Origin: Hydractinia symbiolongicarpus
Lineage: Eukaryota; Cnidaria; Hydrozoa; Anthoathecata; Hydractiniidae
Direction: 5' to 3'
NCBI RefSeq assembly: GCF_029227915.1
Contig: NC_079880.1
Location: forward strand, 8,335,501 to 8,399,500
Length of the DNA: 64,000 nucleotides
Of this stretch, positions 5,801 to 61,100 are shown in pieces. The notes under the pieces were generated by a model. It saw only the letters and a program-made list of their open reading frames with translations, searched no databases and had not been told where the DNA came from. A program made the position numbers and the translations under genes. Within the stretch, counting starts at the first letter, position 1; every line of letters starts with the position of its first letter.

Positions 5801-8307
5801 TGTTTTCATTTTGTCATCTCTTTAGTCGTTCAGTTTATTGGAAAAACAATATATCTAAAGACTGGGATAAAAGTGATAAAGCCACAAAATTTGGTAAGTT
5901 TATTGACTGTATATATATATATATTTTTACCGTGTGTTTTGTTTATATTAAAAGTTCAACTTGTTTTCTTTATAGCCCTGTCAGAAAGATTAGAGCAGTT
6001 AGTTTTGCCTAAGCCAGTGCATAAAGAGTGGCAGGGGGATAGGTGAGTTTTTTTACGTAATTTGTCCCTGTGAAACTTAGAACCTCATAACATTGCTAAG
6101 AACACTGAGTTAATTGGACTGAAGGCTTGATTTAAGTTAACCATATAATACCCTGCGAATAAAATATTTATTCTTGCACAAATGGGCGTATAAGAAACAC
6201 GACTTCTGCGTAGACAGTCACCATATTTTTTAAAAACCCAATTGACTTTAAAAATAAACTCATTTTAAACACCTTAAGGGAAGAAATTATTACGCAAGAA
6301 AAGATTGTGGGATTGACCGGAATTTGCAATCTTTTCTTTCGCAATTGCAAGAAAAAGAAAAAAAATTCGCAATCTGATTTTTCCCATTTCCATGCATTTA
6401 TTTCTGTCGTTGTTTTGCTATATGAAGGTTTACAAGGGAATTCCCTCAAGTATTTGTATCAAAAGAAATTTTCTTTTCAATTTTTTTTAATTCCGCAATT
6501 TATTGTTTTTTCGACCATAAATTCGCAATCTTAAAGTCTGCAAACTTTTCTTCCCTTAAGACAGTTTTAATATTTTCGACGTGTAGTTATTTTATTACTT
6601 AAAAAAGTTACAATACGATATCGAAAAATTGTTTTTTTTAAACGGCTGATCTGACACAGGGTTTTGGTTTTCTGGGACTCTTGCTTTTACAGACTACCAT
6701 TTGGTTAAGCATAAAAAAAAATTAAGAACTTATGAAAAATACCTGATACATAATATATTTCTTTAAAAACAGATTTTTCCTTAATTTACTTTTTACAGAA
6801 AGTAACAATAAATGCAGTTTTTACCCATCAGTATTGTAAATCATGCAATTTTGTACAAACAACGTGAAGTAAGTTCAGATTGTACTGTCGTGTTTCCATC
6901 TGGCCTGTGAATTATATTCTAAAAAGCTATGAAGTTACTGCAGTCACTCCGTTTCGCGTATTCGAATTATAATTCACAAATCTTTAGAAAAAACAGCTTA
7001 TACAAATTGATTTTAAAATACAGTTAACTCCCGGTAACACGAACCTCCAAGGGACCAGAGAAAAAAGTTCCACTTAACGAATGTTCGACTTAGGCGAAGC
7101 TCCCGGTAATTCGAACTTAGAAAAAATGAGATATTAGTTCGAGTCTATAAACTTTACAAATGTTACAATCTTGTAAGTTTTCGCTGAAGTTTCAAATAAT
7201 TCCAAAAAATTGTCGGTTTGACTTAAGCTTGTTGATAGTTCTTGTTCAACAACACGACTTATTAGATTGATGTATTTTTGAAGGCAGGCTCCGTTTTCAT
7301 ACCAGTATTCATTTTTTGAACATTCATTGTTTATTTAGACACTAAAAAGGCCAAGTTATCCGAAATAATTACTTAAGTGGGGATCAAAAAATGGTTCGAG
7401 AAAACTAATGTTCGAGTTATCCGGAATTCGAGTTAACAAGTAGTTTTCATAAGGAAGTATGAAGAAATGTCCAGGGGCCCGTAAAAAAAACAGCTCGCCC
7501 TTGTGTAAAACTATCTTTTGTTGGGTAGTTTGGAAGAAATATGGTTAAACGCACATTTATTTATTAAACAGTGAATGCAGAAAGTGAAATGCCATGCTTA
7601 TTTCCCTTGTGAACGCACTCGTTAAATAATATTTGATATAAATTTTTATGCAACAAAAAAGAAAGTAAAATATTCCATCATTACTGAGAAATGCAGGTTA
7701 CAAGAGCTAGGCTTAAATTTTATTTTTTAGGCCCTCACCTATGTGGTTAGTGAATAAATCTGCTTTAAAGGCTCAGCCATCGGAGAGATTGATCTCTTTA
7801 TCATCAGCAAAGCAACACCATCGCGAGTTTCAAGATGTTAAGCCTGTATATACTGTAGTAAGCAAGGCTGCTAAGAATGCGACAGCGAGTCAACGTGTTG
7901 AGATGTTAGCTCATCCAAAACAATATACAGAGTTGGCAATTAAACCAGACAGTGGTTGGGATTATAGCGAATGGGCTTCAGATGTTTCTCAAGCTGCTTT
8001 GAAATACGAGCCCTCTGGTAGAATTTTACAATTAGCCACACCTAAAGATCTAAACAAGGGTTACGAAGAATGTCGTCCAGTAATGTGGCCAGTGACAAGG
8101 GCTGCTAAAAAAGCTCTACCCAGTATACGCGTACAACAATTATCTAGACCGAAGAGTCGAAGTCAGTATAAAGAAGATTACGACTGTAATTGGTGGAAAG
8201 TCGCACCCGGTGCAAAAAAGGCCCACGCTTCGCCTCGTATTGAAGAACTAAGCACACCTTTGCCAAGAAAGATAAGATTGAAAAAACAGGGGGGTGTAAA
8301 AAGTTAA
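2801..8307 (+). CDS. SPMAP2: THEG/SPMAP2-like sperm microtubule-associated protein (5 exons, 264 aa)
   Basis: Exons: 2801-2816, 2900-2966, 5826-5893, 5976-6042, 7731-8307; all introns are GT-AG and the 795 nt keep frame to a TAA. The protein starts MAAEKTKGKRIDSLARPK and is a run of THEG repeats of the form R-[IVL]-x-x-L-x-x-PK: RIDSLARPK, RLEQLVLPK, RLISLSSAK, RVEMLAHPK, RILQLATPK, RVQQLSRPK, RIEELSTPL. Exon 3 carries the family motif RSVYW. THEG-family proteins are sperm proteins associated with axonemal microtubules; human THEG is longer (about 380 aa) with an N-terminal extension absent here. The first coding exon is only 16 nt; ATG 2,801 is the only start that joins in frame. Introns hold MITEs. 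A candidate polyadenylation signal AATAAA lies at 8,595. No signal peptide or membrane segment is seen. Exon joins are my reconstruction; family assignment is fairly secure. Confidence 0.85.
2967..5825. other. Intron 2 of the THEG-like gene
   Basis: About 2.9 kb of AT-rich sequence. At 3,295-3,500 is a possible SINE with a tRNA B-box-like stretch (GCTCGATCCCGGG). At 4,190-4,510 is a TTCG/GCGAA-rich dispersed repeat that recurs at about 45,470-45,660 and 54,110-54,240. No coding content is seen. Confidence 0.45.
6278..6555. mobile_element. MITE flanked by TTAA
   Basis: A 278-bp non-coding element in intron 4 of the THEG-like gene. It is bounded by TTAA at 6,274-6,277 and 6,556-6,559, with terminal inverted repeats GGGAAGAAA and its complement (TTTTCTTCCC). 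TTAA duplication is typical of piggyBac-type transposition, but known piggyBac ends start CCC rather than GGG, so the superfamily is uncertain. Inner sequence is rich in 'cgcaatc' repeats. Confidence 0.55.
7021..7495. mobile_element. Pogo/Tigger-like MITE copy 1
   Basis: Starts after a TA at 7,019-7,020 with CAGTTAACTCCCGGTAACAC, and contains the family's 'gttcgacttaggcgaagctc' and 'gagttatccggaattcgagt' blocks. Those blocks recur at 42,789-43,482 and in part at 1-66. The 3' end diverges after about 7,490, so the far terminus is lost. It has no transposase, so it is a non-autonomous element or a remnant. It sits in intron 4 of the THEG-like gene. Confidence 0.6.
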
Positions 8308-10270: not shown

Positions 10271-11689
10271 TTATTCTTGTAACTCTGGTGGGAGTGGAGC
10301 TTTCGGATGTTTACTTTCAAAGTGCTGTTTGTACGTCTTAGGGTCTGGCATCTGAGACTAAACACAATGTAAATTAACATTAATCTCCTTTTGTACACAG
10401 AGCAATCCACTTTGTACACAGCACAATGAACTTTGCACAAAGAACAATCTACTTTGCACATAGAACAATGTACTTTGCACATAGACCAATGTACTTTGCA
10501 CATAGAACAATGTACTTTGCACATAGAACAATGTACTTTGCACATAGAACAATGTACTTTGCACATAGAACAATCTACTTTGCACACAGCACAATGAACT
10601 TTGCACATAGAACAATGTACTTTGCACATAGAACAATGTACTTTGCACATAGAACAACTTACTTTGCACATAGAACAATGTACTTTGCACATAGAACAAC
10701 TTACTTTTCACATAGAACAACTTACTTTGCACATAGAACAATCTATTTTGCACATAGAACAATGTACTTTGCACATAGAACAATCTATTTTGCACATAGA
10801 ACAATGTACTTTGCACCTAGAACAATCTATTTTGCACATAGAACAATGTACTTTGCACATAGAACAATCTATTTTGCACATAGAACAATGTACTTTGCAC
10901 ATAGAACAATCTATTTTGCACATAGAACAATGTACTTTGCACATAGAACAACTTACTTTGCACATAGAACAATGTACTTTGCACAAAGAACAATCTACTT
11001 TGCACATAGAACAATGTACTTTGCACATAGAACAACTTACTTTGCACATAGAACAATGTACTTTGCACAAAGAACAATCTACTTTGCACATAGAACAATG
11101 TACTTTGCACATAGAACAATGTACTTTGCACATAGAACAATGTACTTTGCACATAGAACAATGTACTTTGCACATAGAACAATGTACTTTGCACATAGAA
11201 CAACTTACTTTGCACATAGAACAATGTACTTTGCATAAAAAACAACTTGCACATAGAACAATCTATTTTGCACATAGAACAATCTATTTTGCACATAGAA
11301 CAATGTACTTTGCACATAGAACAACTTACTTTGCACATAGAACAATGTACTTTGCACATAGAACAATGTACTTTGCACATAGAACAATGTACTTTGCACA
11401 TAGAACAATGTACTTTGCACATAGAACAACTTACTTTGCACATAGAACAATCTACTTTGCAAATAAAACAACTTACTTTGCAGATAGAACAACTTACTTT
11501 GCAGATAGAACAACCTACTTTGCAGATAGAAAAATACTCTCCATAAATAAAACAACTTACTTTGCACACAGAACAACTGAATACAAGAGCAGCATTAGCA
11601 GCTTTTTTCGTGCTTGTACCTTTTTTCAGTTTCGCTTGCTTTTCAGCATTTTTTTGTTGTGATTGAATCTTTTGCTGACCACGAGCCAT
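10271..11689 (-). CDS. ZNF706: ZNF706-like small zinc-finger protein (2 exons, 71 aa)
   Basis: Minus-strand exons 11689-11561 (43 codons) and 10357-10271 (28 codons plus TAA), phase 0. The protein begins MARGQQKIQSQQKNAEKQ, the hallmark N-terminus of the ZNF706/SERF-like family, then a Lys-rich stretch. The single C2H2 finger is split by the intron: C-S-V-C ends exon 1 and Q-H-F-E-S-K-H in exon 2 supplies the histidines, followed by PLPPELQE. Human ZNF706 is 76 aa with the same layout. The ATG lies two bases after a 3' splice site (TTTCTAG), so a 5' UTR exon is expected further upstream. Family members are small nuclear/cytosolic proteins linked to stem-cell repression and to modulation of protein aggregation. 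The striking oddity is the 1.2-kb intron, almost wholly a 21-bp repeat built from exon 1's own end and splice donor. Both exons match conserved parts, so the gene looks intact. Confidence 0.9.
10390..11575 (-). repeat. 21-bp minisatellite made of an exon end plus its 5' splice site (~56 copies)
   Basis: On the minus strand the unit is TTGTTCTATGTGCAAAGTAAG and close variants (GTACAT, GTAGAT or ATAGAT in place of GTAAGT). The last exon-1 bases of the ZNF706-like gene, TTGTTCTGTGTGCAAA, and the donor GTAAGT form one such unit with a single difference, so the array overlaps the coding exon by about 15 bases and fills the intron. Units next to the exon are more diverged (ATCTGCAAA; 'ttatttatggagag'), while the middle is nearly uniform and partly alternates two variants. 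An indel near 11,236-11,250 shifts the register. Because 21 is divisible by 3, long open frames (YFAHRTM, CKVHCSM and similar) appear on both strands; these are repeat artefacts. Confidence 0.9.
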
Positions 11690-14600
11690 ATCTAGAAATA
11701 CACAAAACAACTAAGAAATGTAGACAGTTGCTTAACTTTCGTAATTCTAAAAAGCTTTATCTTTTTTAAATAAACTTTTGAAAACCAAAATATTCACTCT
11801 GATGCATTTATTTACTAGTTGATTAAGTTGTTCAAATACTCACTTAGTTAAGAAGGCAAATGTTCAAAGAAATGATTTGTTGACCCCAGTAATAAACTGC
11901 CTAGATGGAAAAAATAATTTTGATAACATCATTAACTCCTGTATTCTGAAACTGATTGTTTGGTCTCAATATACGAGGACAAAATAACCTGATGCCACTA
12001 CTTGATTTTTATAAAGCACAGTGCTTAGTTAAAATTAGTTACAATTAGCTTTCTTTGTTAAACTTCGAGTTGCTTTTTTCAGGCTTCCCATTTTGTAAAT
12101 ATGTGCTTACATGATAAATCACGTATGCCAGTTGACTACGTTACGCGATTGCATAGCATACCCAATTTGCTCTGGGTACGCAATTTTTAAAATGGCTATT
12201 TATTTCTCTAACAACGCACGTGCAAAGGATCATTTTGCGGTAGAAAAGTGGGGGAAGTTTTAAATTGTGAACCCCAAACATGATAATTGAGCGTCTACTG
12301 GTATAGCTACTCTCTCAACCTAACTTCCTTTTCTACTTGTCCGAAATAGTATGCAAGACTATACTGTCATTCTCATAGATTTATTGTTTATTTTTCAGGT
12401 CATCACAAGCAAATAGGCAAAAATATGACTCATTTTCAAATTAAAAAAAGTCTTAATCCACTTGGCTCAAATAAAATTTCAAAATTCATTCAGAAATTAA
12501 ATCCATGATAAAATGTCTGTTCCACTTGTACGTGCAGTTTTGCAGACTTGCTTTATTCGTGCTCCGTCGGCGTTCACCTCTGCATTATAAAGAATCGCAT
12601 GGCTGGATTTTTGTGTAAGACCTGGTTACCATTGACGAAGATTTATGTCTACATAGTTCTTTTAACTAAGTCAGTGAATTAGCTAGGATGGTCAGGTTGG
12701 CTATAAAAAGGCTTGCTCGTGGATTAAAAGGACCAGAATTATTCAATAATTCTGAGATAGTGTCTGACCAAGAAAACTAAACATTGCTATAGCATCACAG
12801 CATGTGGATTTATCGAGATAAGGAGGCCACCACACGACAAAGGTTTTTGACATTTTTCATAAGGAAATAATCTGTCAACGTAGGTACTCGGTTCCCTCCG
12901 TACCTCATGTAATTCAGGTACACGATAGGGCGTAGGAACACGATTGCGTACCCTAAAATGAGAAGCCTGTAATTTAAAAAGTAAAAGTACTAGTAGCATG
13001 TGAATGATGATCGGTTTTTTCAGGTTTTTAGCTGACCCAGATATCATGATTTATGTGGAAAAATCTAAAAAAAAATTACAAAGATGCATCATCATTTAAT
13101 TTTAATGACGTTAGCAATGACCTATCAATGCACAAAGAAATGTTTTAATAATTTTCTTTTGCTGTTATCTGCATTGTGTAGAGTTTGATTAAAATAAGGT
13201 ATAGAATTGTGCGATTTTGATTTGCAGATAACAATTTAAAAATATGGCTGACATCAGCAAAGTACCACGAATGTACAAAATTTATCTGTTGTCTCTATTG
13301 TGTAGAGCTTGAAATGCTGATCGGGAAAATATAGAATGCTGTCTTTCTGACAAACGGTTGAAGGGATATGGGGAGTTATAGGGTTTTTGATTGATGATGT
13401 CATTCACTGTCTGTTTCAAGCAGGGTGGGTTGACTCAGCTTTGGAAAAATAGTCCTAATTTAGTCTCAAGTAGTCATTTTCCACCCATTTTCATTTTACT
13501 TAGCCTTAACTTCACTAATCTTTATCCACTTAATTAATGTCAGACTAATGCATAGACCTTGTGCCGTAACATCAGAAAACAAACTTTTGTGGCAACTTCA
13601 AAGAAAAATGAACACATCAACTTCGCCTGTCACAAACAGATGGATACACTTATTATAGAGACTAATCAATAAGGCCCATGGAGAAATCTACTTTAGACAG
13701 AAGGACAATGGAAAGAGATTGTTTTAGATTTTTTGCTGACGTCTGCAGTGAAGATAAAAAATTGGGGAAATTTAGCTCATTTGTTGCATATAATGCATAG
13801 AGATTGTGTTTGACAATCGTATAATGAGAAATAAGGGGTTTTAAATTTTTGCTGTTGTCAGTAAAGACATGTCAAAATACAAGGAAAAAAAATTATTTAA
13901 CAAATATGTATACCCTTTGCCTTAATCATAGAGAGGAATTTTAGGAATAATGAAAAACCTTTGTTTGATATTTTTTCAAGAGATCTTAGGTACCATAGTG
14001 CTTCAAATAACAGGAAAAAGTAAAAACATGTAATTTTTGCCTTGCTTTCCCTTAATTAGACAAGACAAGTAAATTGATTATGGAAGTCAACTATGTAGCC
14101 TAACACATAGAACAAACACATAGAACAAAGAAATTTATGTGATACTCTACAGATTTTGAAAATAGGTCTGAAAGTTCTGAATTCCTTACATTTTCCACTA
14201 GTTTGGGACTTGTATACTTGCAATGCAGTCAAATTTTTAAGATTGTAATAGTGTGTAATGTTTTATCAGTCTTTTATCCCAAAGTATTTTTTTGTAGAAT
14301 TAAACATTCCACTATAAATAATTAATCAGAAAACATGTCTCTTTCGATTCAACCAAAGCCTAGTGTTTTTAAAATTCAAGATGGTAAAGATTATGCGATC
14401 AATTTTTATTATAGTCTCACTTAATTTACTTAATTTAACGCTTCTTTGCTTAAACTCAGGATTATGTAAACAAAAATATGAAATAAAAAGTTAGCTAACT
14501 CCTTCCTCTGGGTCTTAAGACCAATTTCGCTTGGCTTAAGCACTTATTGAAATTGAAACATTGATATCCTACTTGTCTGGGGCCCTGTGTGAATACGAAT

Positions 14601-16750: not shown

Positions 16751-17394
16751 TGTGCTGCAACATGAACATTTATAAAGACAAAAATTTCTCCTCATCTTTT
16801 TCCACCATTATCTTTTTTAATCACATTTATTTTTTATTATTATGGTCCCTAGGTAATTATATTCAATTGATTATTATCAAAAAATCATGTATGTTATTTA
16901 TATTCCCTTAGGTCATTATTTTATTTTATTTCTTATGCTCATCTGAGATAATTGCTGTAATTTTTTATGTAATTATTCACTAGGCAATTATTTTTGTTTC
17001 AATATTTTTATATAAATAGACACACTTTTCTTCACATCAGTTGTAACATGAGTTTCAAAGAGTACATTTATGATCAAAGTCAATTTTATAACATTTGTCA
17101 AATCAACTTCAAACAAGTTTAATTTAAAATTTATATGCACTGGGTACACTCAGTACTATTTACACTGACTACCTGGTAAGTTTTGTTTTGTTTCAGTGTC
17201 AGCCATTTTTATTTCTTAAGTGTGTCTTCTTAGGTTAAGTCAAATTTAATATTTCAAACTCAATATTATTGTCACTCTAGAATTTGTCAGTTCAATTTTT
17301 TAGTTTATTTAAAAATTTGTAAAAATTTATTTTAGTTTGAACATATTCACAAGTTACAAACAAGTCAATTCTCAATAACCCAGTCCGCATTACA
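16751..17394 (+). repeat. 5' LTR of the BEL element
   Basis: 644 bp, TG...CA. Compared by eye with 23,583-24,226 I find no difference. It holds a TATA box (TATAAATA, 17,011-17,018), so transcription probably starts at about 17,040-17,050. A donor/acceptor-like pair (GTAAGT...TTTCAG, 17,176-17,196) spans only ~21 bases, too short for an intron. Confidence 0.95.
17011..17018 (+). promoter_or_regulatory. TATA box of the 5' LTR
   Basis: TATAAATA in the middle of the LTR, where the U3/R boundary would be expected. The 3' LTR carries the same box at 23,843-23,850. Confidence 0.6.
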
Positions 17395-17462
17395 TTCAAA
17401 CAGAAGTCAAATTATTCAAGGTGTTAATACCAGCAAATGAAGCTGTTGATGTGTAACGTCCA

Positions 17463-20400
17463 ATGACAACACGAGGAAACAGGATCAATTATAATCTACT
17501 GAACAGTACAGGTCAAGTCGTTCCCCTCGAGGAAGAAGTTACTGCTCAATTCAACAATCTTTCACTTCACGAGCAAGCCAGTCTTTCGTTATCACGTACA
17601 ACAACCACACCAACCATGGCTGAACCAAGCGATGATGCTATTGACATGATGGTATTAGCCCAGGACGCAATGGACATCATCGACGAAAGCCCTATCAAGG
17701 ATCTGGGTGCAGAAGAACTAAACATCATCATTACCAAGCTGGAACAAATCAGAAGCTCCATTCGTAGAAAAGAGGTCAAAGTCAACATCCAAAGGGAGCA
17801 GCTTGGAGAGGATACGAAGATCTCAGTCAATCAAGCTATCATCTCGATAAAGGATTTTATAAAAACGGTGAACGATATGAAGACAAAAGCAAGGCTTCAA
17901 CAGCAGATGGTCACCGTAAATGAAACTAGACATAAAGAGCAAGCCGTCACCTTTCTACTCAAATGCACCAATGCAGCCATCAAAGAGCTAGAAATCATAT
18001 TCAACCAAAACGTTAAGACAGTTGACTCAAATGAACTCTTACAGTTGAGAAAAGATCTTCTGTCACATAACACCAAGCTAGACAAGATCAAGGACAACTA
18101 CAAAGAATGCCTTGAAACTACATCAACCAATGCTGGCCTGCTAACCGATATAAAAAAGACTGGTGAAAACTACATGCAGCTCAATGAACTGAAACAAACA
18201 TTTGTCAGCAACTTAAGTTCGGAGATACGTAAAAGAGAGCTTAACAAACATGCAGACTTCAAGAAATCGAACCTCAACATCAAACAACAGAAGTTCTCCG
18301 GATATGATTCAAACATTGACTACTATACATTCCGAAGCAATTTCGACAAAATGCACCTGTCAACAACACCAACAGAACTTCTGCCAGACTTGCTACGAAA
18401 CAACTACCTGGCAGATCCTGCACTAACAATGGTCAAAAACATTGACAACATCGATGACATATGGAAACGTCTCAAAGAGTCGTTTGGTGATGCCAAGGTA
18501 ATGATGACACAAAAATTACAAAAACTGAAGAATCTTGACTTCAACAAAAGGGATCCCGAAAGGCTCATTTCTAGCATGAGCACACTCATCAGCCTAATGA
18601 AAGAAGTTGCAACGCTAGCTGAGAAGCACAAGATAGAAGAATACCTCTACTACGGCGATACAATCACAAGAATCCATCAACTCATTGGTGATCGACGCTC
18701 AACCACCTTCCTTGAACACAACTGTGAAGACAACCTCAGCCCAAAAGAAACTTGGCAGAAGTTGATTGACTTTCTCAGCAAAGAGAGGAAAGTCAATGAG
18801 CAGAAACGTCTCCTGATCTTCAAGCAGTCTGATGCACATAAGAAAGAAGAAGCGAAGCAGTATGGAGGCAAACGAAGCACCTTATGCCACTGGAATCAAG
18901 ACACAAGCGAACCAAAATGCTGCATCTGCAATTCACCTGACGGAACATCAGACCACATCTCAACAAACGGTCCAAGAGGAAGCAAGATCATGCAATACTA
19001 CACATGCAAATCATTTGTTTTCAAATCACCTGCTGATCGACTCGAACTTCTTCAACAAAAAGGTTTCTGTATGCAATGCTTGTTCCCTGGAGCAGACGCA
19101 TCCTTTGGAAAACATGCTGAAGGAAAGTGTCAACGTGACTTTGTATGCACTCATCCATCACACCAGAGCGACATCGTCAAAAGGCATGTTCTGGTATGCG
19201 AGGACCACAAGATGTTACAGACGAACCAACAACTCGTGCAAACCTTTGTCAAACGATTCATCAAAAACCCAGCTTTACCATCATTTGCAAAAGACATCAA
19301 GCTGTACAAAGCAACTAATCAGCAATGCAATGATCGTGGGGTGTATCTTCTACAAGAAATCAAAATCAACGGCAGCAACCTACTCATCTTCTACGATACC
19401 GGTTGTAGTGATTTTGTTATTAGCAAGAAAGGCATCCAGCTACTCGGAAGCAGAGTCAAGAAGATAACATCCGAACCAGTAACCATCGGAGGTGTCGGAG
19501 AGTGTCAAGCGGAGTCGGATGGTGTCTACAGCATCACAATCCCGTCACATGATGGCCAGGAAATTGTATTTTCTGGACCATGCCTTGATCAAATTACGTC
19601 CAGATTCCCAAGTTATCCGCTGCATGACGTTGAGAGGGACATCGTCGACTTTCACATAGCAAAAGGAAGAACAAATCCACTTCCGAAGCTTCCACCAACC
19701 ATCGGCGGAGAAGTACACTTGATGATTGGGATAAAGTACCTTCGTCACCACCCACAGATGGTAACCCAATTACCATCTGGACTTACATTGTATGAATCAA
19801 AGTTTATAAACTCATCAGGAGGAAGAGGCGTTGTTGGTGGTCCACACTACAGCTTCACGAAACTGCATCAACATTTTAACTCAACCATGGCCACCACTGT
19901 CTTCTCAAGTCAATACAACATGATGAGGAATCAACCAAACGTTCCACTCTTGGGATACAGTCAGTCACACAACCTGAAAGACCTACATCCATCAAACCTC
20001 ACAGATGCATCAGTCCACATTTCAACTACGATGAGGGTCTTCGAGGAGGTTGAGGCTTCAGGCAGTGAAATCGTATACCGCTGTCCAAACTGCAGAGATT
20101 GCAAGATGTGTAAGCATCCGTCAAACGAAATCATCAGCTGCAAAGAGGAAGTCGAACAAAGCATCATCAACTCTTCAATTACAATAAACTTCAAAAACAG
20201 CACCGCTACAGCACTTCTTCCATTTGTTGCAGATCCAGAAACAAGACTTGCCAACAACAGATACAAGGCAATGAAAGTCTACATACAACAAGTTCGTAAG
20301 CTCAATTTACCAAAGAATCAGAAGGACAAGCAAGATGTGCTTGAATCGGAAGCCAAGTTGCATCAGCTTGGTTATGTCAATTACGTGCGCAACCTTCCCC

Positions 20401-21350
20401 AAGATATTCAACTGCAACTTCAAAACGCAAAGATGCATTACTTCATTCCATGGCGAGCGGTTTGGAAATGCAACTCATTCAGCACTCCATGTCGTATCGT
20501 TTTCGATGCATCTCAGCCAACTGCATCTGGATTCAGCTTGAATGATGTTTTAGCCAAGGGTACGAACAATCTAAATAAACTGCAAGAAATTCTCATCCGA
20601 TGGTATACCCGACCAGTTGCAATACACACTGATATTAAGAAAATGTATAACACAATCAAACTCGACAAGACTCATTGGTGCTACCAACGCTACTTGTGGG
20701 AAAGCAACCTCACGCCAACAGTGGAGCCAGAAGAGAAGGTCATCACAACCCTTATCTATGGGGTCAAGTCATCAGGCAATCAAGCAGAATACGCCCTACG
20801 TCAGACATCTGAAGCACAAACGGAACAATACCCAGAAGTTCACCAAATAGTGAAAAATGACATCTTTGTGGACGACTGCGTATCTGGGGAGGACGACATA
20901 GAAAGCGCCTACCGACGTGCTGACGAACTAGAACTTGTCCTCAACACTGGTGGTTTTCAACTCAAAGGAATCGCATTCTCCGGAGAAGACCCACCAAGCA
21001 CACTCAGCGAAGATGGAAAAACAATCCATGTTGGGGGCATGGTATGGTTTGCAAAAGAAGACAAGCTTGCACTCAACATTGGTGAGCTAAACTTCAACAA
21101 GAAAGTCCGTGGGAAGAAACCGGAAGCAACAATCAACCTAATTCCTGCTAAACTCACTCGAAGACATTGCGCATCAAAGGTGGCTGAAGTTTTCGATATC
21201 ACAGGAAAAGCAGCACCAATTTTGGCAGCGATGAAAATTGACCTCCAAGAACTTGTTCATCAAAACTTGACTGGGATGACATCATTCCAGACAATTTGCG
21301 TCCAATCTGGGAATCAAATTTCAAAGTTATCAAGGAGCTTGGTACCATAA
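17463..21350 (+). CDS. BEL gag-pol, first part: Gag, protease, reverse transcriptase, Pao domain (frame-broken)
   Basis: 1,295 codons from ATG 17,463, the first start after the 5' LTR in this frame. Gag occupies about residues 1-470, including a DUF1759-type segment (QQKFSGYD...FRSNFDKMH) near 275-420. Cys/His-rich clusters follow (C-x2-C and C-x2-C types, about 480-590). The retroviral-type aspartic protease has its active site DTGCS at residue 645. Another zinc cluster (CPNCRDCKMCK) lies near 880. RT spans about 935-1165 with catalytic FVDD at about 1135-1138, then the Pao/peptidase A17 domain (LTRRHCASKVAEVFD) at about 1220. The frame then runs into unrelated residues and stops at 21,350, whereas pol continues in the -1 frame from about 21,270. 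This is a break in a polyprotein that is normally one frame. Products would make the particle, process it and copy the RNA. Confidence 0.9.
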   Translation: MTTRGNRINYNLLNSTGQVVPLEEEVTAQFNNLSLHEQASLSLSRTTTTPTMAEPSDDAIDMMVLAQDAMDIIDESPIKDLGAEELNIIITKLEQIRSSIRRKEVKVNIQREQLGEDTKISVNQAIISIKDFIKTVNDMKTKARLQQQMVTVNETRHKEQAVTFLLKCTNAAIKELEIIFNQNVKTVDSNELLQLRKDLLSHNTKLDKIKDNYKECLETTSTNAGLLTDIKKTGENYMQLNELKQTFVSNLSSEIRKRELNKHADFKKSNLNIKQQKFSGYDSNIDYYTFRSNFDKMHLSTTPTELLPDLLRNNYLADPALTMVKNIDNIDDIWKRLKESFGDAKVMMTQKLQKLKNLDFNKRDPERLISSMSTLISLMKEVATLAEKHKIEEYLYYGDTITRIHQLIGDRRSTTFLEHNCEDNLSPKETWQKLIDFLSKERKVNEQKRLLIFKQSDAHKKEEAKQYGGKRSTLCHWNQDTSEPKCCICNSPDGTSDHISTNGPRGSKIMQYYTCKSFVFKSPADRLELLQQKGFCMQCLFPGADASFGKHAEGKCQRDFVCTHPSHQSDIVKRHVLVCEDHKMLQTNQQLVQTFVKRFIKNPALPSFAKDIKLYKATNQQCNDRGVYLLQEIKINGSNLLIFYDTGCSDFVISKKGIQLLGSRVKKITSEPVTIGGVGECQAESDGVYSITIPSHDGQEIVFSGPCLDQITSRFPSYPLHDVERDIVDFHIAKGRTNPLPKLPPTIGGEVHLMIGIKYLRHHPQMVTQLPSGLTLYESKFINSSGGRGVVGGPHYSFTKLHQHFNSTMATTVFSSQYNMMRNQPNVPLLGYSQSHNLKDLHPSNLTDASVHISTTMRVFEEVEASGSEIVYRCPNCRDCKMCKHPSNEIISCKEEVEQSIINSSITINFKNSTATALLPFVADPETRLANNRYKAMKVYIQQVRKLNLPKNQKDKQDVLESEAKLHQLGYVNYVRNLPQDIQLQLQNAKMHYFIPWRAVWKCNSFSTPCRIVFDASQPTASGFSLNDVLAKGTNNLNKLQEILIRWYTRPVAIHTDIKKMYNTIKLDKTHWCYQRYLWESNLTPTVEPEEKVITTLIYGVKSSGNQAEYALRQTSEAQTEQYPEVHQIVKNDIFVDDCVSGEDDIESAYRRADELELVLNTGGFQLKGIAFSGEDPPSTLSEDGKTIHVGGMVWFAKEDKLALNIGELNFNKKVRGKKPEATINLIPAKLTRRHCASKVAEVFDITGKAAPILAAMKIDLQELVHQNLTGMTSFQTICVQSGNQISKLSRSLVP

Positions 21351-23582: not shown

Positions 23583-24226
23583 TGTGCTGCAACATGAACA
23601 TTTATAAAGACAAAAATTTCTCCTCATCTTTTTCCACCATTATCTTTTTTAATCACATTTATTTTTTATTATTATGGTCCCTAGGTAATTATATTCAATT
23701 GATTATTATCAAAAAATCATGTATGTTATTTATATTCCCTTAGGTCATTATTTTATTTTATTTCTTATGCTCATCTGAGATAATTGCTGTAATTTTTTAT
23801 GTAATTATTCACTAGGCAATTATTTTTGTTTCAATATTTTTATATAAATAGACACACTTTTCTTCACATCAGTTGTAACATGAGTTTCAAAGAGTACATT
23901 TATGATCAAAGTCAATTTTATAACATTTGTCAAATCAACTTCAAACAAGTTTAATTTAAAATTTATATGCACTGGGTACACTCAGTACTATTTACACTGA
24001 CTACCTGGTAAGTTTTGTTTTGTTTCAGTGTCAGCCATTTTTATTTCTTAAGTGTGTCTTCTTAGGTTAAGTCAAATTTAATATTTCAAACTCAATATTA
24101 TTGTCACTCTAGAATTTGTCAGTTCAATTTTTTAGTTTATTTAAAAATTTGTAAAAATTTATTTTAGTTTGAACATATTCACAAGTTACAAACAAGTCAA
24201 TTCTCAATAACCCAGTCCGCATTACA
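23583..24226 (+). repeat. 3' LTR of the BEL element
   Basis: 644 bp, same length as the 5' LTR and apparently identical. Followed by GAAAG (24,227-24,231). Its TATA box (23,843-23,850) points toward the OXR1-like gene, whose coding start is 1.1 kb downstream on the same strand. Confidence 0.95.
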
Positions 24227-46300: not shown

Positions 46301-48631
46301 TTGTCAAAGATGAAACACAAAAGGTATGAACTTTAGATTTTATTTTCAGTTGATGTTTTATTTTTTTTTAGGACACAACTTTTGTAATCAAAACTACTCG
46401 ATATATACTGCTTAACTAAGATTTAAGGACACATGAATTTTAAATTTTGTAAAGCAATCAGAACAGGTCAAAAAATTGTTTTTTTTAAGAATAATTGAGG
46501 TTGATAATGCTGGCTTATAAAAATCCGTGTACTTGTCTTACGATCAGAATAAGGAGATTCATTCAACTTTTTATTCTAATGTGTTATTTGAATAATCGAG
46601 GCACCTATCTTAATTATATAACTGCTACTGTAAGTAAGTGTAGCCTTCTGAAGTAAAAAAAAAGTTATTTCATGCCTTATTTACACAAAGTTTATCGTTT
46701 ACTTTGGTTTGCTGAAGTTCTGATATAGTTAGTCAAACTGTGTATAGTTTTTCCATTTTTCCTCTATATTTCGGTGCGTTTCTTTTGGAACACTAGTATA
46801 ATTTTTCCATTTTTTTCCTCCTTAGGTCTTCGGTGCGTTTCTTTCGGAACCAACAGTATAATTTTGCCATTTTTTTTATTAGGTCTTTGGTGCGTTTCTC
46901 TCGGAACCACCAAGAGTGAGCGATGGTTTCTTTGGTAATGGTGAGAGCATGTTGTTCACTTTCAATGAGCAAAACAAACTGACGGTAAGCTGTGCTCTTT
47001 CAATGAACACTCTCTTTGCATTTCATTGTAAAATCTTCTCCTGGTCTGTTGTGAACACGTGAAACATGAACTCGCATTTCATTGTAAAATCTTCTCCTGG
47101 TCTGTTGTGAACACGTAAAACATGAACTCGCATTTCATTGTAAAATCTTCTCCTGGTCTGTTGTGAACACGTGAAACATGAACTCGCATTTCATTGTAAA
47201 ATCTTCTCCTGGTCTGTTGTGAACTCGTGAAACATGAACTCGCATTTCATTGTAAAATCTTCTCCTGGTCTGTTGTGAACTCGTGAAACATGAACTCGCA
47301 TTTCATTGTAAAATCTTCTCCTGGTCTGTTGTGAACTCGTGAAACATGAACTCGCATTTCATTGTAAAATCTTCTCCTGGTCTGTTGTGAACACGTGAAA
47401 CATGAACTCGCATTTCATTGTAAAATCTTCTCCTGGTCTGTTGTGAACTCGTGAAACATGAACTCGCATTTCATTGTAAAATCTTCTCCTGGTCTGTTGT
47501 GAACTCGTGAAACATGAACTCGCATTTCATTGTAAAATCTTCTCCTGGTCTGTTGTGAACACGTGAAACATGAACTCGCATTTCATTGTAAAATCTTCTC
47601 CTGGTCTGTTGTGAACACGTGAAACATGAACTCGCATTTCATTGTAAAATCTTCTCCTGGTCTGTTGTGAACACGTGAAACATGAACTCTATTTTTTTTT
47701 AATTGTCAAGAAAGTTCGGCTCAATTTCGGTTATGACATTCAGTCACATTTAGAAAAAATTCAATTTCATTTTATACAACTGATCGCGCAAACTTGTGGC
47801 CACGCTTACAATCAACATTTATATCTCTCCAATCTACTTTTTTTTTTTGTCTCCATCCACATCGGGTATTCTACTTTACAATTAGAGGGAGAGCATATTT
47901 TATTTACTTTCGAATTCGAATTTTATTTCGCAAAATAACTTGCAACTTTTTGGTTGACGTTTCTTGTGGGAAGTCTGAAAAGTCGGGCTTATCCTCGGGT
48001 TTTACTAAATGAATCAAAAAAGGTGATAGACGATCAATCGTATTCTAGTTTGACAAAGTTGATTGTGTAACGCCCGTTTACTCTCCACCATATACGTATT
48101 TTATTGCATTAATTTCTCCTTCTTCTTTTAGCCCTACAACTGGACTGGTGAAAACAACTTTTTTTTGAAAGGTTCAAAAATAAGTCTTGCCATCGGCGGA
48201 GGAGAGTATGTAACCTTCTATCTATCTGTCTATCCAATAGTTTGATGTCAATGTTCCGTTTGCTGTTTATATATAGCTATATGCTTTTATTTGTAGCTAT
48301 ATGCTTTTATATGTAGCTATATGCTTTTATATGAAGCTATATGCTTTTTTATGTAGCTATATTCTTTTTACCTACAGCTATATGCTTTTTACATTAGCAT
48401 ATCTTTTTTGAAATACTCGGGACCAGTGTGGAAAATAACGAGGTTTTTTATTCTATCTATAAGAGATAATTTCTTCACACTACTATTTTTCATAGGGGCG
48501 TGTTTGGTCTTTGGTTGGACGAAGATTTATATCGTGGTCGAAGCCATTCATGCAAAACATTTGGAAATGAAACACTGTCAGGCAACGAAGATTTCATATG
48601 CAGTGGATTAGAGGCATGGTCCTTTGTGTGA
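25301..48631 (+). CDS. OXR1: OXR1/NCOA7-like TLDc protein with LysM domain (15 coding exons, 775 aa)
   Basis: Exons: 25301-25339, 25919-26026, 37635-37778, 37954-38073, 38387-38574, 39291-40048, 40247-40433, 41198-41303, 41563-41622, 44365-44447, 45731-45800, 46171-46323, 46883-46984, 48132-48205, 48496-48631. All joins are GT-AG and the 2,328 nt keep frame to TGA. A LysM domain (YDVKSSDTVASIALRYN... to PGQTLFVP) covers about residues 11-54. A GRAM-like block (GVVSGVLLVTPQTVMFNP) is at about 138-200. A long Ser/Asp-rich exon follows, then the family block HWFAIPKERVDQFYGFLLQW (about 503-525). The C-terminal TLDc domain (about 620-775) has LPSRTVGHSWELVYST, VFGAFLSEP, GLWLDEDLYRGRS and ends LEAWSFV. 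OXR1/NCOA7 proteins protect against oxidative stress, and their TLDc domain binds the V-ATPase. Human OXR1 and NCOA7 are about 870-940 aa. Exon 1 is the least certain: its donor GTTAGT is acceptable and an in-frame stop lies upstream at 25,283. Confidence 0.88.
26350..26574 (+). CDS. Possible alternative first exon (75 codons) of the OXR1-like gene
   Basis: An ATG in good context (aaATGG) opens 75 codons, MAHSSFVDEDWTDLHCNIF to WRLGSCFK, with coding-like composition. It ends at AAG|GTCTTG in phase 0, the phase of the next exon at 37,635. OXR1 and NCOA7 genes in other animals use alternative first exons that drop or replace the LysM region. The donor is weak and the sequence matches nothing I recognise. 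It may instead be a chance frame. Confidence 0.3.
26890..27215 (+). repeat. Dispersed repeat family A copy
   Basis: Begins 'agcccgtagaaaaaaaaatccacttaggcaga', then the blocks 'tttgtttacccattgcctataatatgtggagcgtgaaacactgat' and 'tttttgatgacatcatcaacctg'. The same blocks occur at 13,080-13,900, 29,375-29,910, 36,605-36,900 and, reversed, 34,440-34,990. Non-coding; presumably a SINE or MITE. Confidence 0.55.
28852..29262 (+). repeat. Direct duplication, copy 1
   Basis: About 400 bp (from 'tcttaaagttttcattattaag' to 'cacttattgtaaaaacatttatc') recurs at 30,455-30,845 in the same orientation with scattered differences. Non-coding; either a dispersed element or a local duplication. Confidence 0.65.
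29375..29910 (+). repeat. Dispersed repeat family A copies
   Basis: Two or more partial copies in tandem, each with 'aaggcc(cg)gtgaaaaaatcca' and 'ttgcctctattgtgtagagc'-type blocks. Same family as 26,890-27,215. Confidence 0.5.
30225..30420 (-). repeat. Dispersed repeat B, inverted relative to 34,255-34,430
   Basis: The stretch 'aacgtcaaagtttggtaaattacagaacaattttata' is the reverse complement of part of 34,340-34,425. Non-coding dispersed element. Confidence 0.5.
30455..30845 (+). repeat. Direct duplication, copy 2
   Basis: Second copy of the 28,852-29,262 segment, 1.6 kb downstream, same orientation, diverged by small indels and substitutions. Confidence 0.65.
32903..33733 (-). mobile_element. 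5'-truncated LINE in OXR1-like intron 2
   Basis: The 3' part of a non-LTR retrotransposon, antisense to the host gene. It ends with the family's terminal sequence (ACCCATGCTAGCATGG...GAATGATGATGATG) and an (ATG)n tail. The host stretch CCAACTCA occurs at 32,895-32,902 and 33,734-33,741, a likely 7-8 bp target duplication. Truncation at the 5' end is typical of incomplete reverse transcription. Related fragments are at 1,425-1,495 and 42,541-42,780. Confidence 0.75.
32923..33729 (-). pseudogene. C-terminal part of a LINE ORF2 (268 codons)
   Basis: Open frame of the truncated LINE. It begins with a PHD-like Cys/His cluster (CGVCRKG...FCQTCKHWVHKKCS...CKRC), then the post-RT region seen in many invertebrate LINE proteins: YGSETWAVKQEDLDRLERND, then a segment with LRRLNWLGHLER-like residues (RRLNWLGHLERM) and KPRGRPRKTW. 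Reverse transcriptase and endonuclease are missing, so the copy cannot move. The undamaged frame suggests a young insertion. Confidence 0.75.
33955..34030 (+). repeat. TCATC-rich short tandem repeat
   Basis: Imperfect repeats of an 18-bp-like unit (cctcatcaa/tgtcattgt). Non-coding. Confidence 0.5.
34150..34255 (+). repeat. Dispersed repeat C, copy 1
   Basis: The block 'gtgaaaggattta...tgtctgtctgtctgtgagtgcaa' followed by 'aataatgacaggtgaa' recurs at 35,490-35,635. It contains a (CTGT)n stretch. Confidence 0.55.
34440..34990 (-). repeat. Dispersed repeat family A, reverse copy
   Basis: Reads on the minus strand like the 26,890 and 29,375 copies, ending at 34,965-34,990 with 'cctaagtggatttatccacgggg'. 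This is one of the longest copies, with 'gatgacgtcatcaaaaaacc' and 'gctgacgtcagcaaaa' palindromes inside. Confidence 0.55.
35490..35635 (+). repeat. Dispersed repeat C, copy 2
   Basis: Second copy of the block described at 34,150-34,255, same orientation, few differences. Confidence 0.55.
36605..36900 (+). repeat. Dispersed repeat family A copy
   Basis: Contains 'ttagccatcgcctctattgtgtacagc' and the following family-A block. Partial copy. Confidence 0.45.
40615..40760 (+). repeat. 40-bp tandem repeat (about 3 copies)
   Basis: Unit 'cttatcaattttttcgtcca' plus 20 more bases (ttttttcatccttccattca), preceded by a short GTTC/GTTCG run. Lies in the OXR1-like intron after exon 7, about 180 bases past the donor. 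The open frames across it are not genes. Confidence 0.75.
41951..42424 (+). repeat. 21-bp minisatellite (about 22-23 copies)
   Basis: Unit GTAGAAACCAGGTCAGGTGTA, with two variants (GGTCAGG and GGCCAGG) arranged in blocks. It lies in the OXR1-like intron after exon 9, about 330 bases past its donor. Each unit includes CAGGT, but no GTAAGT-type donor. Confidence 0.9.
42541..42780 (+). mobile_element. LINE fragment (same family as 32,903-33,733)
   Basis: Reads, with stops and gaps, like the region around YGSETWAVKQEDLDRL of the LINE at 33,150-33,430: 'aggttgtatgagacctgtgtaagaagtgtt', 'gcaggaagatcttgac', 'agagacagaaagagttcaga'. A decayed, sense-strand piece in the OXR1-like intron. Confidence 0.65.
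42789..43482. mobile_element. Pogo/Tigger-like MITE copy 2
   Basis: Ends at 43,482 with GTTCGAGTTACCGGGAGTCTACTG followed by TA, the classical pogo-type terminus (its complement starts CAGTAGACTCCCGG). The start at about 42,789 lacks the outermost bases. It shares inner blocks with 7,021-7,495. No transposase frame is visible. It lies immediately beside the LINE fragment. Confidence 0.65.
44530..44625. repeat. Dispersed repeat fragment
   Basis: The block 'gagacacacaaaatgcgaact...tttatccacggcccccgactagt' is related to 60,215-60,305. Non-coding, in the OXR1-like intron after exon 10. Confidence 0.4.
46741..46915 (+). repeat. Threefold tandem copy of the exon-13 acceptor of the OXR1-like gene
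   Basis: A unit of about 60 bp, made of a pyrimidine tract, AG and the first ~27 coding bases (VFGAFLSEP), occurs at about 46,741-46,800, 46,801-46,860 and 46,861-46,915. Copy 3 is the real exon start (46,883). Copy 2 keeps a fine acceptor (cctccttag, exon side at 46,826) but would read V-F-G-A-F-L-S-E-P-T-V and then stop. Copy 1 has lost its AG. Confidence 0.85.
47019..47688 (+). repeat. 56-bp minisatellite (about 12 copies)
   Basis: Unit 'gcatttcattgtaaaatctt...gttgtgaacacgtgaaacatgaactc'. It starts 34 bases past the exon-13 donor of the OXR1-like gene. Units differ mainly at one spot, CACGTG versus CTCGTG, so about half carry the E-box palindrome CACGTG. Confidence 0.9.
48268..48395 (+). 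repeat. 20-bp tandem repeat (about 6 copies)
   Basis: Unit TAGCTATATGCTTTTATATG with length variants. Fills much of the last OXR1-like intron (48,206-48,495). Confidence 0.8.
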
Positions 48632-55100: not shown

Positions 55101-58100
55101 CTGTTATAATAGTAGCTCTCCATATACCAAGTTGGCCTTTATACAGTGTTTCTGTAACATGTAGTATGTCGCCTTTGCGGAAAGCGAGTTCACCTTTGGA
55201 TGGGTGAGTGCGATCAAACAATGTTCTGGAAAGAAACATCAAATTTATCATCGGTGTGTCTCATCATAGGACTTAAGACGAACTTTAGGTGTTGCCACAC
55301 AGAGAAGCAAAACTTGTACTGAAAATTCCACAAATCAGCACACAACAACTATCAAACTGATGACCGAGCAATTTGTTTTTGTTTTCCAGTGTGTAAAAAC
55401 AAAACTTACCGGACATAAAGCGAATCACCAGGTTCATTTTGAGCTTCGATGTAACCTAAACACAAAACAGATACGAATTAAAAGGGGAAATATAATTATA
55501 AAGAAGACTTCTTCAAACGTATATTAAGTGTGACCACTCACCTGGTGGATTGTATTGCACTTGAAAATCAGCGACTTCTGTTGGTTTACCAAGTTCCAAT
55601 GTGGCATCTTCCAAAGTACAGCCTTTCATATCTTTCGCATTGTACTAAAATATCAAATATTCACTTTTAAACAAAAATAGAAGAAACATCACTCGCCCCT
55701 TAACATCTAACACGCTTTTAAATAAGCAAGAATAAAAATCAATTTGCCAGAATGGTTATCTTTCGTAGCAATTTTTCAAAACATACAAGGGCGGTGTCAA
55801 TAATTTTTCAATATCCCCAATCCATCTACACAGGAAAATCAATGTTTGTTAGACCCAATTTGCGCACATTAAAAGGTTGTGATAAATTTTTTAGGATTTT
55901 TTCAGTAAAATCTGTGTCGTTACATGTTCTTGAAATGAACCCAGAAGTTATGAGGTCCGGTGTCCGATACAATTTTGCAATAACTACAGAGAAACGAAAT
56001 CAGCTTTAAAAGATGATCTGCGAAAATCACGATAAAAACTTAAATGCAACAGACCTTTAGGATTTTGTCTCCACATTTCAAACCAGATTGGTGGCCAGCT
56101 AAACTGTCTTTTTGAATGTCGGAAATATAGATACCAAGCGAATTACCGCCAATTATTCCAATACCAAGCGGTTCAGAGGGCTGTTCCCGATCGATGCGAA
56201 TAAATCTTGGTTCTTCTACAGCGTCACCCTCGGGAATTGGAGTTCTAAGGAAAACACGATCCAAGTTTTCAAATAGTTTCACATACCTTTAATAGGTGAA
56301 AAAAAGTGAAAGAATGAGAAGTTGATAAACTTTAATATAACCAGTCATTGACATTTTTTTCAAAAAGAGTTGCATTCAAATATTACGTGAAAAATAGTTG
56401 TGATAATTTTTCGAATAAAAAACTCACCGGTAGTAAAAAACTCACCGGTAGTAAAAACTCTCGGTGGCAAAATAAACTTAAACGTAAAAAATATTTTACG
56501 TTTTTTGTACGCCAAAATAATCAGTAGAAAGTGTTCAGAACAGATTATAAAAACACTGCGCTACTCTATCGAAGTGTTAGCTACTTCATATCTTTTTACG
56601 AGTCAACTGAATATTTTACTGGTTAATTCTCTTTAGAATCCGCCAACTTTATTTTGAACGAAGATATTGCTCAGCAGTTGCAACAGCACTTACATTTTGA
56701 TATCGTTCGACGTAAGTTTAGAGTGGTCTGAGCATGAGCTTGTATTCGAATTTATTCGCACGTGTATAGACACGGGAGTTCCAGGCGCGGTACATCTCAG
56801 TAAAGGCGAGCTTAACGAAGCTGCTGTGACATTTTTATGCGGAGTGCAAGGTGTAGACTGGGCACTGCTAAAAATAAAGGTGCAAACACACTGTGCAACT
56901 TACGTGCATAATATATAAGTGGAATACTACATGATAGCTAAACACAAAAAAAAACAGAATTGCGAAGGAGGGTGAAATTATGAGTGGCATAGTAAACCTA
57001 CTATAAATAACTTGGCTAAAACGCTATGTATCCTGACATATATTGTTTATCATTATTGCACTTGAAATTTTTGATGAAAGTATAGAACTTAAACTTTAAA
57101 CCGAGAATATAAGTGTACATAACTTTGTGTAAACTATGCATAAACTCGAATTTATACCTGACACTAGTCTCCACAGCTTCTTGCATCTCTAAAAACAAAA
57201 AAACAATTACGGGTTTTTAATTTAGCAAATCGAAAAATTGAACTTTTTTACGGTTTTATTTTAGCGAAACAACGGTTCCGCATATTTGTTTCGCGCGTAA
57301 ATTGAGCTAGCAGTTATCGAAAAAGTTAATTTTGAAAAAAAACTAACGAACTTTAAACTTATTTCAAACAATATTCTATTTAAGTTCATACACACTCACT
57401 GAGAGGGTTGTATTGCACAATATGAACAACACAAAAAGTTCACACACACTCACTGAGATGGTTGTATTGCACAATAACAACAACACAAAAAGTTCACACA
57501 CGCTCACTGAGAGGGCTGTACTGCACAATATGAACAACACAAAAAGTTCAGACACACTCACTGTGAGGGTTGTATTGCACAATAACAACAACAGAAAAAG
57601 TTCAGACACACTCACTATGAGGGTTGTACTGCACAATATGAACAACACAAAAAGTTTATACACGCTCACTGAGAGGGCTGTACTGCACAATATGAACAAC
57701 ACAAAAAGTTCAGACACACTCACTGTGAGGGTTGTATTGCACAATAACAACAACACAAAAAGTTCAGACACACTCACTGAGAGGGCTGTACTGCACAATA
57801 TGAACAACACAAAAAGTTCTGACACACTCACTGTGAGGGTTGTATTGCACAATAACAACAACACAAAAAGTTCACACACACTCACTGTGAGGGTTGTATT
57901 GCACAATATGAACAACACAAAAAGTTCACATACACTCACTGTGAGGGTTGTATTGCACAATAACAACAACACAAAAAGTTCACACACGCTCACTGAGAGG
58001 GCTGTACTGCACAATATGAACAACACAAAAAGTTCACACACGCTCACTGAGAGGGTTGTATTGCACAATATGAACAACACAAAAAGTTCATACACATTCA

Positions 58101-61100
58101 CTGTGAGGGTTGTATTGCACAATAACAACAACACAAAAAGTTCACACACACTCACTGTGAGGGTTGTATTGCACAATAACAACAACACAAAAAGTTCACA
58201 CACGCTCACTGTGAGGGTTGTATTGCACAATAACAACAACACAAAAAGATCACACACGCTCACTGAGAGGGTTGTATTGCACAATATGAACAACACAAAA
58301 AGATCATACACACTCACTGTGAGGGCTGTACTGCACATTATGAACAACACAAAAAGTTCATACACACTCACTATGAGGGCTGTACTGCACAATATGAACA
58401 ACACAAAAAGTTCATACGCACTCACTGTGAGGGTTGTATTGCACAATATGAACAACACAAAAAGATCATACACACTCACTGTGAGGGTTGTATTGCACAA
58501 TAACAACAACACAAAAAGTTCAGACACACTCACTGAGAGGGCTGTACTGCACAATATGAACAACACAAAAAGTTCTGACACACTCACTGTGAGGGTTGTA
58601 TTGCACAATAACAACAACACAAAAAGTTCACACACACTCACTGTGAGGGTTGTATTGCACAATATGAACAACACAAAAAGTTCACACACACTCACTGTGA
58701 GGGTTGTATTGCACAATAACAACAACACAAAAAGTTCACACACGCTCACTGAGAGGGCTGTACTGCACAATATGAACAACACAAAAAGTTCACACACGCT
58801 CACTGAGAGGGTTGTATTGCACAATATGAACAACACAAAAAGTTCATACACACTCACTGTGAGAGTTGTATTGCACAATAACAACAACACAAAAAGTTCA
58901 CACACACTCACTGTGAGGGTTGTATTGCACAATAACAACAACACAAAAAGTTCACACACGCTCACTGTGAGGGTTGTATTGCACAATAACAACAACACAA
59001 AAAGATCACACACGCTCACTGAGAGGGTTGTATTGCACAACATGAACAACACAAAAAGATCATACACACTCACTGTGAGGGCTGTACTGCACATTATGAA
59101 CAACACAAAAAGTTCATACACACTCACTATGAGGGCTGTACTGCACAATATGAACAACACAAAAAGATCATACACACTCACTGTGAGGGCTGTACTGCAC
59201 ATTATGAACAACACAAAAAGTTCATACACACTCACTGTGAGGGTTGTATTGCACAATATGAACAACACAAAAAGATCATACACACTCACTGTGAGGGTTG
59301 TATTGCACAAGAGCTGTTACAGTGTTAGCAACAGAAAGCTGATTCATAATGGATGCTGCTTGATCAGAATTTGCTGACCTCAAGTTGATGCCATTATACT
59401 AAAAGAAAAAGAACAGTTATTCAATGACATTCAGAATACAGCTCCATTGATATGGAAAGTTATGGGGATCAGGTGTGGTGATTAGATGTTTTCTACTGGA
59501 TTTTACATTCAAAAGTTTATCAGCACCTGACACTTTACTACAAGCACGTTTTCACAATTATTACGAAAACTTTTCCTTCAGAAAAAAAAAATAAAAAAAA
59601 AAATTATACTGGCCCTTCTGTTAAATTTTCTAGTTTTGAACCCGATTTCTTGCCTCTCTCTCTTTCTCTGTTCTTCTACTGCCTAACTCTCGTTTATATA
59701 ACAAAGAATGTTAACATGTTTAAACCAACCTCCAATAACTGATCACCACATCTTAATCCAACCTTAGATGCAACACTTCCCTCATTAACACCCACCACAA
59801 AAATACCATTGGATTGACCTTGCCTAATGATAATACCCAAAGGGTTTTGTCCCTTCTCAATGATTGTTTTACGTGGTTTCTCTTCTTCACTATACAAAAA
59901 ACAAGATTTTGCATTACTCACTATAGCAGCCAAATCAAAATATGATATTTTTGGCAGAAACACTAGAGCTATAAAAAAGGTACAGTTGGTTTTTGTTTTG
60001 TTTTTTTGTCATGGATTTTTTTTATGTATAAAAGATAAGAATTTAAATGGTTGATTTCTGTTATCAATCAGTAAACATCTTTTCAAAAAAACACGCATTT
60101 TTGTTTTTACCCTCCATGTTATTTACACCTCATAATATCCTGAACATTAAAAAACATTTTAGATAGACAAACATCTATATTATAATACCCGCATACGTCT
60201 GTCTGCCATGCCAAAATGTTACTGAAAGTAGTGAGACACACGTAACGCGGTACAAAAGAACAGGCGAACCCGTAGATTTTTCCATGGGCCACCAACTAGT
60301 ATATTAATAATATCACAACAAAGTCTTACACTTTGGTTTCAATACTGCTTGTCTGTTTAGATTTCTTGGTTTCTTCCTTTTTCACGTCACTCACTTCCCT
60401 TTTGTTTTCGTTTTTTTTCTGTTCCTCCAGATGAGTGTATGGCTCCTCAACAAGTGGTTCAATTGGATAAACAGACAAAGTGGCTCGGTCAGAAAACTCC
60501 GAGGAGTTTAATGACCCCAGCGAACTATGAGATCGATGAGAGAAAGAAGGCAAACTAGTAATGGAGGAGTGCCTATCGCCAGGATCTCGTGACAGTCGTC
60601 TCCCACCAATCGTCATGTTTGGATAAAGGCGAGTAGCCCTCAGTACTTTATTTGACCTAATTCCAGTTGAATTAATTGATGTGACTGAAGCAGTGGTACT
60701 TGAAGGCTGACCACTTGTACGGGGATTTTGAATCTCTAAGATGCTGTCATTTAGAGTGGGTGTTTTCTTTAATAGATGCGAATGTCGACCAACACTTTCA
60801 CTGCTTCCAACACTTTGTTTAGAGCTGCTAGGTCTTACTCGAGTCTGCCCTGAAACAGCATCGTTGGAGTGAATTTGGATAGTTTGCAAGTTGTGTGTTG
60901 CAGGATCATTCTTGCTAGTGGATATAAATGATCCATCTCTGCAAGTTTTTAAGTCATCCATTGATTGGTGTGTTCTTTTCATATCATTCAGTCCACGTCT
61001 TTTTTCTTCTTCATACAAATCACGCAAGATTTTTTGGATCTCGTCATCTGACATCCTTCCTATAAATGAACTGCCTGCTCTATTGTGAGAAACCATACCA

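Follow-up and report, generated by a model that had tools for sequence, protein, structure and literature searches.

We describe a minisatellite that fills nearly the whole intron of a ZNF706-like gene (hereafter ZNF706) in a stretch of 64,000 nucleotides of the hydrozoan Hydractinia symbiolongicarpus (NC_079880.1, positions 8,335,501 to 8,399,500), here called the window, whose own numbering is used throughout. The first copy of its 21-bp unit is formed by the end of coding exon 1 and the GTAAGT donor. In two papers on amphioxus, arrays that span an exon-intron boundary are named 'mirages' (PMC3087553, PMC3902484), and we consider, with a probability of about 0.86, that the ZNF706 array is such a mirage, i.e., a minisatellite grown from the exon-intron boundary of an ancient intron. 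A previous sequence-only reading of the window had already seen in this intron a minisatellite seeded by its own exon end and 5' splice site, a view that the present analysis strengthens. Neither the known kind of the array nor the occurrence of such arrays at two further genes of the window figured in that reading.

The ZNF706 gene and its repeat unit

The gene is on the minus strand and its two coding exons, once joined, encode a protein of 71 residues that matches SERF-like_N (E 3e-8) and zf-met (E 4e-5) in Pfam, as well as 817 proteins at E ≤1e-3, 120 of which were listed. Coding exon 1 (11561..11691, ATG at 11689) is a probable 131-nt exon running from an apparent acceptor, TTTCTAG, read from sequence only, to the donor. 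Exon 2 (10272..10357) starts at 10357, opens with TCTCAGATG and encodes SQMPDP...PPELQE followed by a stop, the same residues being present in the database protein P0001. Between both lies an intron of 1203 bp (10358..11560), which extends from GTAAGT, with the donor G at 11560, to TTTAG, and whose position is conserved in relatives. The join of the exons at 11,561 and 10,357, on which the sequence-only reading depended, is supported by P0001, a protein 97% identical to the ZNF706 of the window that shows CSVCK-SQMPDP uninterrupted in one open reading frame (ORF) of a 1689-bp contig. P0001 probably represents a transcript, from the same species or a very close one, since P0121, the match of a THEG gene lying elsewhere in the window and also 97% identical, looks spliced; it continues upstream of the residues RPSP, where the ORF of the window does not.

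Tandem Repeats Finder places at 10390..11576 (minus strand) a 21-bp minisatellite of 56.8 copies with 89% matches, in line with the about 56 copies first proposed to fill a 1.2-kb intron. Parsed from the exon copy, the array yields 60 segments, of which 53 are full and ungapped when the exon copy is included; unit counts given here rest on the 52 full intronic units and exclude the degenerate units 2, 3, 16, and 17 as well as the segments of the tail. The unit had been equated with the last 15 bases of the exon plus the donor, with one difference. Its exonic part is in fact longer, as units of the AG type match the junction back to 11578, i.e., 18 exon positions take part, and this exon copy (11561..11578, minus strand), defined by unit alignment and protein conservation, encodes the conserved CxVC-K. 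Against the last 16 exon bases, 15 were matched in 44 units, 14 in seven and 13 in one. The single difference from the exon-junction copy holds for 7 of the 52 units, whereas the commonest form, the CA type (19/52), departs from it by three bases and has a weakened donor.

With at most three mismatches the pattern of the unit occurs 55 times in the window, always between 10408 and 11576 (shuffle mean 0.28), and outside the array no place of the window matches the AG-type unit, in whatever rotation, better than the exon junction, which has one mismatch, compared to at least four elsewhere. Degeneration with indels affects the first ~42 intron bases past the donor as well as two paired units at 11263-11227. 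The 29 bases that precede exon 2 cannot clearly be assigned to the array; they share with the unit a match of 8 bases (shuffle p 0.02 to 0.03), and the acceptor TTTAG sits outside the clear array. An acceptor derived from the array was rejected on the ground of this short match, and the reading of the 30 nt following the donor as a decayed unit was tried and not adopted (p 0.05). Rfam gave no match at the gathering threshold, and no ZNF706 locus was confirmed in the viral and genome contig collections that were searched.

Age of the intron and growth of the array

The sequence-only reading held the coding sequence to be ancestral and the array derived. This order is supported for the exon end and the intron position, since three residues at the exon end are invariant and the break falls at this residue in relatives too, where the readable stretch shows no array. 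The two cysteines at the end of exon 1 and the valine between them are invariant in 26 aligned ZNF706 proteins, including that of the window. Intron positions in relatives were read by a protein search with exon 1 and the first intron codons, which returned 403 proteins (120 listed); the counts cover the 77 proteins listed there for the first time, a redundant set with at least 12 near-identical members (P0246 to P0261 in part). In 70 of these 77, CxVC and one further residue are followed by the break, then by V (GT) in 58 and A in 12, whereas four break at the Cys with other residues and three are unbroken. A few relatives have CALC, with L replacing V between the cysteines, and P0258, classed by eye, reads CAVCK-A without an extra CxxC. 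The 'ena' entry of highest listed identity (P0205, 93%) reads CSVCM-VCIIGY at the break, which is also found at the same residue in proteins resembling named fish ones (P0264, P0272, P0279).

An entry of the database may be an ORF called on genomic DNA, as the THEG control indicates, since P0122 and P0123 have other residues before the shared RPSP, like the ORF of the window. Several of the 77 ZNF706 relatives lie on contigs of 0.4 to 3 Mb and are therefore genomic. No run of CxxC units was seen in the readable stretch of any of the 74 broken relatives, and a single extra CxxC was present in P0228, P0234, and P0243. The intron position being shared by relatives, the intron of the window is an ancient one that expanded and not one born by duplication. 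Unbroken full-length ORFs occur on some large contigs (e.g., P0026, P0036), and the intron may be absent in some lineages. Separately, CK-A takes the place of CK-V in twelve read-through ORFs (P0223, P0227, P0229, P0231, and others), which would point to an intron of the GC-AG type in a single lineage.

The ancient intron separates the CxxC half of the ZNF706 zinc finger from the remainder. A 21-bp stretch composed of the 18 terminal exon bases and the first bases of the donor would have been duplicated into it in this lineage, likely by slippage between two direct AGTTGTT repeats 21 bp apart (11551..11578, minus strand; 11578-11572 in the exon and 11557-11551 in the intron), which form a candidate seed. 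Unequal exchange would then have multiplied the unit, also in blocks of two and four, the exon copy presumably being held fixed by selection on the protein. Traces of such turnover are present in the array: in one run of 40 contiguous units, the similarity shows peaks at lags 2, 4, and 8 (0/500 permutations each), lag 6 having a p of 0.028, and all six edge units lack an identical partner, compared to 6 of the 46 inner units, with an edge width of three units chosen after looking. Divergent edges around a homogeneous interior may be taken as the usual sign of unequal exchange. Like the sequence-only reading, we infer slippage or unequal exchange as the cause of the array, and its growth was most likely neutral.

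Several observations weigh against a mirage grown from an ancient intron. The join of the exons is seen in the P0001 protein and not in RNA of this genome. Three changes separate the most frequent form of the unit from the exon copy, and the margin by which the CA-type unit points to the junction is thin (three mismatches, compared to at least four elsewhere in the window). In each relative, the read-through ORF covers a short stretch of intron (six codons in P0205), and such short read-throughs cannot exclude a deeper array, because the first ~42 intron bases of the window are themselves degenerate. Finally, the second AGTTGTT is possibly a decayed copy of the unit rather than its seed.

Donor choice and alternative explanations

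According to the sequence-only reading, the spliceosome must choose one donor among many near-identical ones. The intron contains 169 GT sites, with 27 occurrences of AAAGTACAT and 11 of the authentic donor 9-mer, AAAGTAAGT, the authentic one included, and 12 sites, again including the authentic donor, have a pairing energy with the U1 end sequence at least as good as that of the authentic donor. The statement therefore stands for 10 identical intronic decoys, but the donor is weaker or lost in most units. Four of the identical decoys (intron offsets 63, 84, 126, and 231) keep an open reading frame and would add 21, 28, 42, and 77 residues, respectively; the other six are out of frame, three of them beyond a stop. 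Among equal donors the proximal one often wins. The first donor is probably used here because it closes an exon of normal size (131 nt), the decoys being farther off and mostly weakened, and such use would need exon definition or first-come commitment.

We consider it unlikely that a function in splicing or expression maintains the array, its decoys being structured or under negative selection. Changes with respect to the exon copy do fall at 96 of 312 cells in the donor columns and at 61 of 780 in the exon-derived columns (49 of them at one column), and the CA-form unit forms a small hairpin over its weakened donor, although an equal or better fold is reached by 30 of 200 shuffles. The array of a DLG5-like gene described below shows no such pattern (donor 11/210, exon part 40/665, with GTGAGT kept in 24 of 35 decoys), and few independent changes lie behind the counts. 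Selection against decoy donors was thus rejected, being suggestive in ZNF706, absent in the DLG5-like array, and based on few events. As for structure, none of 30 dinucleotide shuffles folds as well as the complete intron (a mean of -288.8 vs. -335.8), but the folding of a 30-unit segment is equaled by 21 of 60 column-permuted arrays. It therefore looks like a generic property of repeats, and a special RNA structure was rejected.

That a dispersed satellite landed in the intron, its likeness to the exon end being due to chance or to later conversion, is a very unlikely explanation. The window is admittedly rich in minisatellites, as 12 arrays selected from the Tandem Repeats Finder output, shorter or low-copy rows being excluded, cover 6119 of its 64,000 bp, and the commonest ZNF706 unit matches the junction with only one mismatch fewer than unrelated places. 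Nevertheless, all 55 unit matches of the window fall within the ZNF706 intron or exon end, the junction is the best match outside the array, the exon residues are ancestral and two other arrays match their own exon ends. Still less probable is a coding array that, if retained, would add (V-x-C-S-M-C-K)n to the protein. The unit length is divisible by 3, the frame remains open over 247 intron codons from exon 1 (stop at 10817-10819) and the four decoys above give in-frame additions. However, the frame shifts near 11243 and meets a stop before exon 2, no such protein was found among the 120 listed of 403 matches, whose sizes were limited to ~41 to 131 residues, and P0001 and full-length relatives show the spliced form.

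Finally, the birth of the intron itself by tandem duplication of exon sequence (the Rogers model), which would agree with an intron built of exon-derived units, with the 8-base match near the acceptor, with the unbroken ORFs of P0026 and P0036 and with a published fission yeast case involving a 24-bp unit (PMC4974935), was rejected as hardly credible, because the position is conserved in 70 of the 77 newly listed relatives, some of them like named fish proteins, and the duplicated unit provides no clear acceptor, TTTAG lying outside the clear array.

Other arrays of the window and known systems

Two further boundary arrays were found by looking near arrays, in a window whose exons are known in part. 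The second mirage (57382..59310, minus strand) was delimited by Tandem Repeats Finder and junction comparison; it counts 35.7 copies of a 54-bp unit and spans the donor (G at 59289) of a DLG5-like gene. The corresponding PDZ exon (59290..59398, minus strand) ends with ...LVQYNPH, and its last 21 bases, which are the first copy of the array, open the unit together with GTGAGT. The joined exons have human DLG5 as best solved match (PDZ structure 1uit, E 4e-22), aligned to its residues QYNPH. The intron is 2101 bp long, with an acceptor at 57188 predicted from the letters, and contains the authentic donor 9-mer 18 times, the authentic one included; use of a decoy leads to an immediate stop. GTRAGT is found 25 times in this array and 11 times in that of ZNF706, and is absent from the other ten selected arrays. 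The third mirage (46742..46907, plus strand) has 2.9 copies of a 57-bp unit and spans the 3' splice site of a TLDc exon (46883..46984, plus strand; VFGAFLSEPP...), the joined exons of which match Pfam TLD (E 1e-11) and the PDB entry 4acj (E 2e-14). Its copy B is a decoy acceptor followed at 46826 by an exon-like start. It retains TTAG as well as 27 of the 31 bases on the exon side and, if used, would lead to a stop; copy A has lost the AG.

Other features of the window can be listed briefly. The arrays 47018-47689 and 48261-48409 (plus strand) start 33 and ~55 bp past the ends of TLDc exons, the second end being a putative one, and by eye show no repetition of these ends. Identical short repeat rows at 16989-17328 and 23821-24160, 6832 bp apart, flank two long ORFs at 17457-21350 and 21242-23539 that appear to be arranged as in a long terminal repeat retroelement, putatively of the Bel/Pao type. 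The THEG (sperm microtubule associated) gene has an exon at 7717-8307 (plus strand) and its closest named relatives are from Clytia and Hydra; in a tree, the window groups with P0121 within a supported group of 15 of the 26 rows that holds Hydra and Clytia.

The mirages of amphioxus reportedly go back to an original paper of Canestro and others in 2002. They concern Adh3, the globins BflGb6 and BflGb9, troponin C, and PGBD5 (PMC3902484), and divergent edges around a homogenized interior were described for a globin mirage (PMC3087553). The ZNF706 array resembles them in that its unit spans the end of a coding exon and a splice site, its repeats carry splice signals, and it is homogenized inside and divergent at its edges (PMC3087553, PMC3902484). 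It differs by being found in a hydrozoan and not in a cephalochordate, by occupying nearly the whole intron and by its copy number, with ~57 copies in ZNF706 and 36 in the DLG5-like gene compared to 6 and 3 in two BflGb6 haplotypes. No cnidarian mirage was found in the literature searched, with a single query directed at cnidarians and most subscription journals outside its scope, and no boundary-spanning array is described in the available parts of PMC12783039 and PMC2883569. Whether boundary arrays are common and recurrent in this genome instead of a quirk of amphioxus, with protection of the exon copy and cost-free growth on the intron side turning splice junctions into seeds, is a matter of even odds in our view.

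Internal tandem repeats at exon-intron boundaries in human segmental duplications, with an average of four 30-bp units, are likewise minisatellites at such boundaries that change gene structure, but they are interpreted as giving rise to new introns or coding repeats, whereas in ZNF706 it is an old intron that has lengthened, with no change to the protein (PMC2812944). In the fission yeast case too, tandemly duplicated exon sequence becomes intron; in contrast, ZNF706 has no AGGT unit supplying both ends, and its intron predates the duplication (PMC4974935). The three examples of this 64-kb window, two of which count dozens of copies, extend mirages from cephalochordates to a cnidarian, and their origin and spread thereby become testable across animals. 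Such introns show intron lengthening with their own exon as raw material, and they represent natural constructs for studying the choice, by the spliceosome, of the first donor among 11 to 18 identical ones.
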